Source: an uncultured Collinsella sp. (GTDB taxonomy: Bacteria > Actinomycetota > Coriobacteriia > Coriobacteriales > Coriobacteriaceae). Taken from it: a stretch of 9,634 bases of DNA. The notes beneath the pieces are model-generated. The model had not been told where the DNA came from, did no database searches, and was given only the letters and a program-made list of their open reading frames with translations. The stretch is from the NCBI GenBank assembly GCA_902482185.1, contig CABSZR010000038.1, positions 1 to 9,634 on the forward strand, read 5' to 3'. Positions 3,122 through 9,634 of this stretch are shown one piece after another. Position 1 is the stretch's first letter; each line of letters opens with the position of its first letter. The translations under genes were made by a program, and so were the position numbers.

Positions 3122-6436
<3,315 letters not shown>

Positions 6437-6448
6437 TGTGACCTGTCC

Positions 6449-6539
6449 GGCCGGGGTGGGAGGGGCCGAGATTTCCCCCTTTCGCTCCGGCTGCAAGCAG
6501 AGTCGCTCAGGAGGAAACTCGGCCCCTCCCGCCCCGGCC
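6449..6539 (-). repeat. long inverted repeat IR1 with conserved GAGCGA tip, just after carB
   Basis: Arms 6449-6476 and 6513-6539 pair over 27 positions with one G-T wobble (6457/6531) and one bulged A (6471). The tip, read on the minus strand, is GAGCGA (6508-6503), a 15-base mini-hairpin segment, then GAGCGAA (6487-6481). The same tip is found in the repeat at 6690-6794 on the other strand. The element starts 13 bases after the carB stop. It lacks a following T-run, so it is not a standard intrinsic terminator, though it could stall polymerase or protect the carAB mRNA 3' end. The strand given is that of the GAGCGA boxes. Confidence 0.8.
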
Positions 6540-6612
6540 TGCGGTGACTTGGCTGCACCGTGTGCTGCGGAAGGGGCTTTGCGCGATGACTAGGGCTGAA
6601 TAAAAAGTGAGT

Positions 6613-6648
6613 GTGGGATCCGCCGTTCGTTCGAACGGCGGATCCCAC
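6613..6648. terminator. perfect 17-bp palindrome, probable terminator
   Basis: Arms of 17 bases (6613-6629 and 6632-6648) are perfectly complementary around two central bases. On the plus strand it is followed by GTTAATATTTC, a weak T-rich tail. On the minus strand it is followed, a few bases on, by the complement of AATAAAAAG (6599-6607), a better T-run. A bidirectional or weak terminator for carAB is the likeliest role. It does not share the GAGCGA tip of its two neighbours. Confidence 0.55.
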
Positions 6649-6689
6649 GTTAATATTTCAGCCAACGTACGTCATGGCAATCCCCGGTA

Positions 6690-6794
6690 GGTCCCCGGGT
6701 GCCCCGCGGCAGGCTGGGTTTATTGTCCGAGCGACTTTGCGAAGCAAGGGGAGCGAAGATAAAAACCCAGCCCGCCGCGGGGCACCCGGGGACC
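6690..6794 (+). repeat. long inverted repeat IR3 with conserved GAGCGA tip, upstream of purE
   Basis: Arms 6690-6721 and 6763-6794 pair over 32 positions with a single A/C mismatch (6711/6773). The tip contains GAGCGA (6729-6734), a mini-hairpin CTTTGC-GAA-GCAAGG (6735-6749), then GAGCGAA (6751-6757). If the two GAGCGA boxes face each other, G-A pairs flank two G-C pairs, a recurrent RNA fold. The tip matches the repeat at 6449-6539 in reverse orientation, while the arms are unrelated. The right arm ends 17 bases before the purE -10. Confidence 0.82.
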
Positions 6795-6880: not shown

Positions 6881-7345
6881 ATGGCAGATCAAAAGCCGGT
6901 TGTCGGGATCATCATGGGCTCCAAGTCCGATCTGGGCGTTATGGAAGGCTGCACCGCCGAGCTCGAGGCGCTTGGTGTGCCCTATGAGCTCGTCATTGCG
7001 AGCGCACACCGCACGCCGGCGAAGGTCCACGAGTGGGCCTCGACTGCCGCCGATCGCGGTATCAAAGTGATTATCGCCGCCGCCGGCAAGGCTGCTCACC
7101 TGGGCGGTGTCGTGGCTGCGTTTACGCCGCTGCCGGTCATCGGCGTGCCTATGAAGACGAGCGATCTGGGTGGTATGGACTCGCTGCTGTCGATGGTGCA
7201 GATGCCTTCGGGCGTGCCCGTTGCCTGTGTGGCCATCAACGGTGCCAAGAACGCTGCCATTTACGCCACGCAGATTCTGGGCGCATGCGACCCCGAGTAC
7301 CGCAAGGTTATCGAGAAGATGAAGCAGGAGATGGCTGACGCCTAA
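6881..7345 (+). CDS. purE: N5-carboxyaminoimidazole ribonucleotide mutase (class I PurE)
   Basis: PurE converts N5-CAIR to CAIR in de novo purine synthesis in the cytosol; PurK normally supplies N5-CAIR. The 154-residue length fits single-domain bacterial PurE. Conserved blocks are IIMGSKSDLGVM near the N terminus, ASAHRTP, the AAAGKAAHLGGVVAAFTPLP glycine-rich loop, VIGVPMKT, and SLLSMVQMPSGVPVACVAI. The last two favour the bacterial class I mutase over the class II AIR carboxylase. I chose ATG 6881, nine bases after AGGAGG (6866-6871); an in-frame TTG at 6875 is only three bases from it. No purK or other pur gene is in the window. The sortase gene follows after 36 bases on the same strand with its own ribosome-binding site, so co-transcription is likely but functionally unexplained. 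Confidence 0.95.
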   Translation: MADQKPVVGIIMGSKSDLGVMEGCTAELEALGVPYELVIASAHRTPAKVHEWASTAADRGIKVIIAAAGKAAHLGGVVAAFTPLPVIGVPMKTSDLGGMDSLLSMVQMPSGVPVACVAINGAKNAAIYATQILGACDPEYRKVIEKMKQEMADA

Positions 7346-8902: not shown

Positions 8903-9634
8903 TGTAGATGAACCGCGCCCCAAATCTTGGACGCCCTAAATAGCGACTAGGCCGCAAGGGCCTGATTCCGGTACTCCTCCGGGGTCAGGCCCTTCAATCT
9001 TACCTGCCTCCGGCTCGTGTTCCAGTGGACTATGTATTCCTCCAGGTCGCGTTTGAAATCCTCGAACGTCTTCCACTCGCGGCCCCTGTAGAACTCGTCC
9101 TTGACGTGGCCGAAGAGCTGCTCGGTGGCGGCATTGTCGATGCAGTTCGCCTTCCTGGACATGCTCTGGACGATACCGGCGGCCTCGAGCCTGGATGTGT
9201 ATGAGGCGTGCTGGTACTGCCAGCCCCGGTCCGAGTGCATGGTCGGGGCGGCGCCCTCGGGGATCTTGGACAGCAGCTCGTCGAGCATCCTCGCCTGCTG
9301 GGCCATGTCGGGCGTGGTCGATATGTCGCTCGCCACGATCTCCTTGGTGCAGAAGTCCAGCGTCGGGGCCCAGTAGGCCTTACCGCCAGCCACCTTGAAC
9401 TCGGTGACGTCCGTCCCCAGCTTCTGCCACGGGGCCCCGGCGTCGAAATCCCTCGCGATCACGTTCTCGAACGTTCTGCCGACGACGCCCTTGTACGAGT
9501 TGTACCTGTGGTAGGCCGTCTCGCGTCTGATGCCGCAGCGAATCCCCATCTCGCGCATCATCTTGAGCACGGTCTTGTTGGCTATCACGGCCCCCTCTTC
9601 CGCCCTGAGGCACATCGCTATCTGCCGGTGCCCG
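8903..9634 (-). mobile_element. IS3-family insertion sequence, cut by the window edge
   Basis: The element contains the minus-strand transposase and ends near moaE. Its outer end at about 8903-8935 has the layout of IS150-type terminal repeats: a TG start, then CGCGCCCCAAATCTTGGACG. The exact tip is either TG at 8903 or TG at 8909 and cannot be fixed without the other end. It lies about 55 bases after the moaE-like stop, so no gene here is broken by it. The other terminus, the orfA part and the target duplication are outside. Confidence 0.75.
8947..9633 (-). CDS. IS3-family transposase OrfB (DDE), 5'-truncated by window edge
   Basis: This is the integrase-core part of an IS3 transposase, which cuts and joins the element's DNA ends. 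The frame is open to the right edge, where it begins GHRQIAMCLRAEEG, the HTH_21-like region that precedes the catalytic domain. Counting from the first in-frame Met (9615), the acidic triad is Asp69 in GTDVTEF (9409-9411), Asp129 in HSDRGWQY (9229-9231) and Glu165 in NAATEQLF (9121-9123). Asp129 and Glu165 have 35 residues between them, the DD(35)E spacing of this family. The C terminus HWNTSRRQVRLKGLTPEEYR is also typical. The visible part has no frameshift or stop and looks intact. In IS3 elements OrfB is usually made as an OrfAB fusion by -1 frameshifting, but that site is off the window. The IS150 subgroup is likely, not proven. Confidence 0.92.
   Translation of the reverse strand, partial: GHRQIAMCLRAEEGAVIANKTVLKMMREMGIRCGIRRETAYHRYNSYKGVVGRTFENVIARDFDAGAPWQKLGTDVTEFKVAGGKAYWAPTLDFCTKEIVASDISTTPDMAQQARMLDELLSKIPEGAAPTMHSDRGWQYQHASYTSRLEAAGIVQSMSRKANCIDNAATEQLFGHVKDEFYRGREWKTFEDFKRDLEEYIVHWNTSRRQVRLKGLTPEEYRNQALAA

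Follow-up and report, generated by a model that had tools for sequence, protein, structure and literature searches.

Crowned hairpins at gene ends in Collinsella: a likely carB 3'-end hairpin with a predicted RNA module at its tip

A long hairpin (IR1) begins 12 nt past the carB stop codon of an uncultured Collinsella species. It is likely to be the 3'-end hairpin of the carB mRNA, and its conserved apex, the crown, is predicted to form an RNA module of its own, held by a partner; taken as a whole, this reading is judged moderately probable. The crown would sit as a self-contained part on a stem that is specific to each locus. Crowned hairpins would work at the level of the mRNA, resembling terminators or protecting the 3' end, and recognition of the crown, probably by an RNA-binding protein, would add to termination, 3'-end protection, or processing. 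A further hairpin in front of purE (IR3) would be a second copy, with the minus strand as its mRNA-type strand. As the stem supplies double strand, its sequence would be free to drift while pairing is kept. The crown would have to keep its sequence in one orientation, which suggests that something reads it, most likely a protein.

The hairpins between carB and purE

The window, meaning the whole stretch of 9,634 nucleotides that was analysed, contains carB, IR1, IR2, IR3, and purE in that order (Table 1). The names carB and purE were read off the sequence, that of carB without a family search, and are presumed here. The last 477 residues of carB are matched in 61 of 64 family genomes, and the sortase of the window matches 19 Collinsella loci at 88–99% identity.

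Table 1. Positions of the genes, hairpins, and crowns in the window
Feature	Position	Strand	Basis or remark
carB (carbamoyl phosphate synthase large chain)	3122..6436	+	ORF
IR1, long hairpin at the carB 3' end	6449..6539	+	Arm complementarity, RNA folding
IR1 crown (apex), GAGCGA strand	6482..6508	-	Shared apex sequence
IR2, 16-bp hairpin with T-rich tail on the minus strand	6613..6648		Ordinary, intrinsic-terminator-like
IR3, long hairpin between IR2 and the purE leader	6690..6794	+	GAGCGA crown on the plus strand
IR3 crown (apex)	6729..6756	+	Shared apex sequence
purE, 3' of IR3	6881..7345	+	ORF

IR1 and IR3 were originally described as near-perfect hairpins that share one GAGCGA...GAGCGA apex on unrelated arms, and both arm complementarity and folding bear this out. 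The arms of IR1 (6449–6478 and 6510–6539) are 30 nt long and 87% complementary, those of IR3 (6690–6721 and 6763–6794) 32 nt and 97%. As RNA, IR1 folds at -74.9 kcal/mol on the plus strand and -77.2 kcal/mol on the minus strand (z -7.81 and -7.67), and IR3 at -90.4 and -85.3 kcal/mol (z -12.72 and -13.20); in all four cases the fold was reached by none of 200 shuffles. The apex reads GAGCGACTCTGC..TT..GCAGCCGGAGCGA on the minus strand of IR1 and GAGCGACTTTGC..GAA..GCAAGGGGAGCGA on the plus strand of IR3. On the carB mRNA strand the IR1 crown is TCGCTCCGGCTGCAAGCAGAGTCGCTC, and the hairpin is followed directly by TGCGGTGAC, with no U-run. IR3 does not lie closely downstream of any stop codon, but sits before purE.

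Other parts of the window show features of their own. The first ~220 bases are AT-rich, with a GC content of 0.32–0.38 over the first 180 nt versus 0.65 at 241–300, and positions 1–240 look like a chimeric assembly join of a low-GC ABC-transporter piece to the Collinsella piece, the join seemingly falling at a conserved nucleotide-binding motif. Where carA starts (1634–1812), a sub-threshold match to the PyrR binding site is seen (38.2 bits against a gathering threshold of 54). Its 5' hairpin fits well, and the match suggests pyrimidine control of carAB. The minus strand of 8947–9633 holds what is presumably an integrase-core transposase ORF, resembling the IS3 type when judged by eye.

A dispersed family at gene ends

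The bare pattern GAGCGAN{8,30}GAGCGAA is unspecific, its backwards control being about equally frequent in eight genomes. Because it gives too many chance matches, a stricter tip pattern was used, which is present in 22 of 43 genomes of the genus, against none of the 43 for the backwards pattern; the tip recurs within the genus. Among 30 unique window-type hairpins, 14 lie at the 3' end of a DUF47-type gene that adjoins a phosphate-transporter-like gene, eight upstream of purE, and seven at the carB 3' end, with one unassigned. A covariance model built from 24 hairpins (R1) hits 26 of the 43 genus genomes at E up to 0.1 and, at the stricter E up to 0.01, 34 of the 65 family genomes. On the reverse strand of true hairpins R1 still scores ~40 bits from the arms alone, which rules out its score by itself as proof of membership. 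Low-scoring matches were therefore fetched and read by eye, and nearly all have GAGCGA-like boxes with wholly different arms.

Other members carry a longer, nearly invariant tip, which on the GAGCGA strand reads GAGCGATTCCGCAG-[stem]-CGAGGACMAGCGA. This tip occurs at 42 exact places in 14 of 244 genomes of the order, ten of them in one genome, and its reversed pattern at none. A slightly looser pattern is found in five of 396 phylum-sample genomes, all five among the 65 family genomes. R2, a model of this long-tip class, matches in 66 of 247 order genomes (E up to 1e-4), with 6–40 matches per genome in ten genomes, counts that are upper bounds as some hairpins are counted on both strands. On the mRNA strand the common core is GTCCTCG-[stem]-CTGCGGAA. 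The helix that closes it varies, with GCGAAC/GTTCGC and GCAAAC/GTTTGC among the examples. A model of this core (R3) has matches in 75 of 296 class genomes (E up to 0.001), and finds neither IR1 nor IR3 at E up to 1. The window crown is therefore a divergent version, tied to the wider family by no more than its GAGCGA boxes, its stem, and where it is placed.

Over the hairpins of the window and of 20 loci with related hairpins, no Rfam 15 family reaches its gathering threshold. The matches there are sub-threshold, mostly to microRNA families, and these and DUF3800-IV were rejected as the identity of the hairpins, being arm-driven as well. What emerges is an RNA-like module at the tips of gene-end hairpins, below every Rfam 15 threshold, with up to 40 looser matches in one genome as an upper bound. 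The tip pattern matches no viral contigs, and a viral origin was set aside. No description of the crowned family appeared in the literature among the matches listed, nor in the available portions of PMC3733652, PMC12306157, PMC8040213, PMC8632094, and PMC2864571. The available part of PMC8040213 refers to 250 palindromic RNA candidates in a supplement, one of which may be this family. In 800 kb of one genome (G009, L141–L180) there is another dispersed palindrome family, with TTGCGGTGRWATA arms and 30 such words, besides further palindromes built on GGGACGGGG. The word CAGCCAA upstream of hairpins was discarded as a general feature, occurring at two family hairpins in 800 kb.

Placement was analysed in 52 non-redundant hairpins, reduced from 181 instances through 94 unique ones. 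The loci were fetched mostly as pattern matches, paired arms were required in picking and orthologous genes recur, and the set is neither a random nor an independent sample. An ORF ends within 60 nt of 40 of the 52, and the GAGCGA strand is antisense to that ORF in 34 and sense in six. When ORFs of at least 200 aa are considered, taking the nearest ORF end within 60 nt and the longest ORF, the ratio is 34:1, as all 34 antisense ORFs reach this length but only one of the six sense ORFs. Another rule for picking genes, with a minimum of 150 aa, gives 39 antisense versus seven sense. The hairpins mostly start 9–31 nt past the stop codon.

The ORFs beside the hairpins are mechanical calls, named from an NCBIfam scan or by eye. 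Of the upstream proteins, 26 are listed and 20 were scanned; 18 of these have a match with an E-value no higher than 1e-10, though some do not exceed the curated cut-off. The matched genes include argS, folD, rsgA, pta, groEL, ftsX, ispG, pnp, and an oadA-type gene, as well as ppc, gltX, arcC, rplX, livF, and others; two further neighbours, named from sequence, are taken to be rpsJ and the aldolase gene fba. Hairpin-bearing genes are thus largely housekeeping genes. T's are also enriched on one side, the first 9 nt past the hairpin holding a mean of 3.02 on the mRNA-sense side versus 1.35 on the other (excess on the mRNA-sense side at 41 hairpins versus seven, with four ties, p = 4e-7). The flank starts with T.CG on the mRNA-sense side of 16 of the 52 and on the other side of none. 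A canonical U-tract (five T in eight) follows five of the 52, and four T in eight follow 21.

The stems comprise 19–45 pairs (median 27 in the 52 hairpins), and pairing is kept across wholly different sequences. In 49 arm pairs of the canonical class, chosen partly for paired arms, the Watson-Crick fraction is 0.90; after shuffling the mean is 0.44 and the highest value 0.475. All 40 unique instances picked by tip only have long complementary arms, scoring at least 13.8 (median 21), against a median of 3, a 95th percentile of 11.7 and a maximum of 16.1 when arms are swapped between instances. An alignment of 18 rows, 17 of them distinct (A3), shows changes on both sides in 22 of 26 outer-helix pairs. 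None of 500 shuffles and no slid version of the structure reaches the observed value of any of the five covariation measures; the structure was drawn from the same sequences, a choice that favours it over the slid versions. The pattern originally proposed, a conserved tip on free but paired arms, is therefore seen in each of its parts: several copies per genome, a conserved apex, and covarying arms.

Crowns at orthologous ends and the readings they allow

The ends of groEL and fba were read in 30 loci each, from 62 and 64 genomes with a match, respectively. At groEL, a stem scoring at least 10 is present at 29 of 30 orthologous 3' ends and starts 19–45 nt past the matched coding region, within a search confined to 12–61 nt past it. 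The broad core labels 14 of the 30 as crowned (for example in G061, G058, G062, G008, G041, G042, and G056). Among the other 16, G048, G050, G023, and G019 have a plain short loop and the rest include some other or decayed apices; G051 and G060 are crown-like by eye. The label 'plain' means that the core expression is unmatched, and takes in the decayed and other apices as well as these last two. The strict tip pattern labels four of 30 groEL ends and one of 30 fba ends. Crowned and plain groEL hairpins often have a similar stem base (GGGAAGCCCC, GGAAGGCCCC, GGGAGGCCCC), and TGCG or TGTG often follows either. A terminator-like hairpin lies within the crown at L405 (G007).

The carB ends were read in 30 loci and 20 further stretches. 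By eye, the base stem GGCCGGGGCGG is common to 21 of the 22 closest genomes, of which 13 have a GAGCGA-box crown, eight another crown, and one has lost both. Beyond these 22, none of 28 carB ends carries this crowned hairpin; the first eight of them include five ordinary terminators by eye, and the other 20 comprise five canonical terminators, 14 with neither, and one with box-like words and no hairpin. Together, the plain and crowned groEL ends and the two crowns on one carB stem indicate that a local stem can have its crown exchanged.

Upstream of purE, 19 loci were compared with the window; L020 and L021 gave no purE start. A GAGCGA-type apex is present in 13 sequences including the window, one of them inverted (L002), and another apex in L006 and L010, while L015 is cut off and no such hairpin was found in L005, L012, L017, and L018. 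In 12 of the 13, leaving out L002, the left-arm segment differs by 27% and the tip by 7.3%, with values of 20.7% at four-fold sites of purE, 13.8% in the 38 nt upstream, and 3.2% in the purE leader. As the arms differ about as much as four-fold sites, hypermutation is not needed to explain them, and hypermutable arms were rejected: the arms drift at about the neutral rate at this site with pairing kept.

The second crown type, one strand of which contains CTTCGCGAAGCCCAG, takes the place of the GAGCGA crown in some strains, at carB as well as at purE (L004, L013, L006, L010, L462, L467, and others). In other strains (L001, L006, L010, L164, and others) the carB–purE interval holds different cargo upstream of purE; by eye, this includes a probable sorting-signal surface protein, a toxin-antitoxin-like pair, and PTS-type genes. 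The interval thus appears to behave like an insertion hot spot. A segment starting at or near CGACGCACTGTGTCTAGACGG is joined inside an arm of crowned hairpins at the carB and purE sites (L164 at ~6070; L126 and L140 past the purE hairpin; L478), which makes the arm look like a target of insertion or recombination.

It was also proposed at the outset that the hairpins may be a mobile palindrome family. Orthologous gene ends occur with or without a crown at one spot, which leaves the plain form of the idea incomplete. A refined form holds that crowns are selfish or mobile palindromic cassettes, inserting into the loops of terminator hairpins that already exist; each copy would inherit the local stem, with no need of benefit to the host. 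Since crowns do look like cassettes, this is a serious rival, even if an unlikely one. It directly explains how one crown comes to sit on unrelated arms, and how two crown types share one carB base stem and both recur at the purE site. The groEL 3' end of G049 (L400), where a complete hairpin is nested in the loop of another, the 6–40 R2 matches per genome, again as upper bounds, and the inverted IR3 hairpin of L002 also fit. The single orientation relative to the gene (34:1) argues against it, as do covariation in the inner stem within the crown, near-neutral arm drift with pairing kept, and the tip pattern's lack of matches in viral contigs.

The stems are almost wholly Watson-Crick. In 995 aligned arm pairs of the tip-only set, 20 G-T and 25 A-C mismatches are found on the GAGCGA strand, and G-U is accordingly rare on either strand, unlike in a stem kept by RNA folding alone. 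This leaves room for DNA-level copying or use of the palindrome, in which it would act as a cruciform or as single-stranded DNA, for example as a site for a topoisomerase or a nuclease beyond strongly transcribed genes. Such an element would account for G-T and A-C being equally rare, an outcome not expected from selection on the folding of one RNA strand, and for the survival of the inverted copy in L002; a comparable role has been proposed for REP elements. Nonetheless, T enrichment on one side only and the plain terminator-like hairpins that relatives carry at the same gene end point to the mRNA, and REP foot tags are rare, so that a DNA-level element is considered quite improbable.

The original prediction that mismatch types would not name the transcribed strand held. 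The 94 unique hairpins have 41 A-C versus 25 G-T (p = 0.064) and the 52 non-redundant ones 24 versus 18 (p = 0.44), and folding energy shows no preference for the mRNA strand, which is the more stable in eight of 29. The strand is pointed to by position and orientation, not by mismatch type. Since the GAGCGA strand is antisense to the neighbouring ORF in 34 of the 35 hairpins that lie by the end of an ORF of 200 aa or more, the boxes would appear in the mRNA as their pyrimidine complement, which does not suit the tandem G-A motif first suggested, a kink-turn-like arrangement. That the GAGCGA strand is nevertheless the transcribed RNA, for example an antisense transcript coming in from downstream in which the facing boxes would pair through tandem G-A, is very improbable. 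In its favour, GARCGA/GAGYGA boxes usually remain paired where G-C is replaced by A-T, and structured RNAs commonly have conserved purine-rich internal loops. Against it, the 3' ends of groEL, rpsJ, fba, and other genes would have to be transcribed in antisense, and T's are enriched only past the end of the opposite strand.

If the crown is indeed an mRNA module bound by a protein, it would constitute a family-wide 3'-end signal for housekeeping mRNAs; to our knowledge, bacteria are not generally thought to have a shared one. A tentative extension, possible yet on the doubtful side, is that a family-wide RNA 3'-end system in Collinsella and its relatives docks at the crown. One RNA-binding protein would read both GUCCUCG...CUGCGGAA and the GAGCGA-box versions on terminator-like hairpins, and its binding would mark, protect, or process the ends of many housekeeping mRNAs. 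The groEL orthologues that end plain or crowned and the two crowns that alternate on the carB stem provide a natural experiment.

Relation to known systems

Rho-independent terminators likewise consist of a GC-rich hairpin shortly past the stop codon, a position that IR1 has and IR3 does not. Shared with them are also the T enrichment on the sense side and, at groEL of some relatives, plain-loop hairpins. The crowned hairpins differ in their stems of 19–45 pairs, their conserved crown, and a canonical U-tract in only five of 52 and none at IR1. For lack of a U-run, IR1 is not filed as a Rho-independent terminator and is instead proposed to work like one. The uptake sequences of Neisseria and Haemophilus double as terminators, with the word forming the arms and occurring in very high numbers. 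They resemble the crowned family in having a conserved word in gene-end hairpins of otherwise free sequence, but in the crowned family the word is the apex and numbers tens at most. DUF3800-IV RNA (RF02963) is a long GC-rich hairpin and scores 33.4 bits on IR3; this is below the gathering threshold of 60.7, and the alignment pairs the arms and skips the tip.

REPs have been linked to gyrase. Like REP, PU, and BIME elements, the crowned hairpins are intergenic palindromes repeated within a genome, and REPs are described in the available part of PMC3733652 as having 5–13 bp stems and a GTAG or CGTC foot tag, with hypothesised roles in supercoiling of DNA, termination of transcription, and stabilisation of mRNA. 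Unlike these elements, the crowned hairpins have 19–45 pairs, a conserved apex, and a free stem, and at either foot GTAG and CGTC each occur in three of the 52. The HMP-PP (thiS) riboswitch, an aptamer embedded in a terminator that senses a thiamin precursor, offers a parallel as a conserved RNA domain inside a terminator, as far as the accessible text of PMC6478431 describes it; the crowned hairpins differ from it in lying at the 3' ends of unrelated housekeeping genes. The crowned hairpins thus share their place with intrinsic terminators and their nature as repeated palindromes with REPs, yet lack a defining feature of each.
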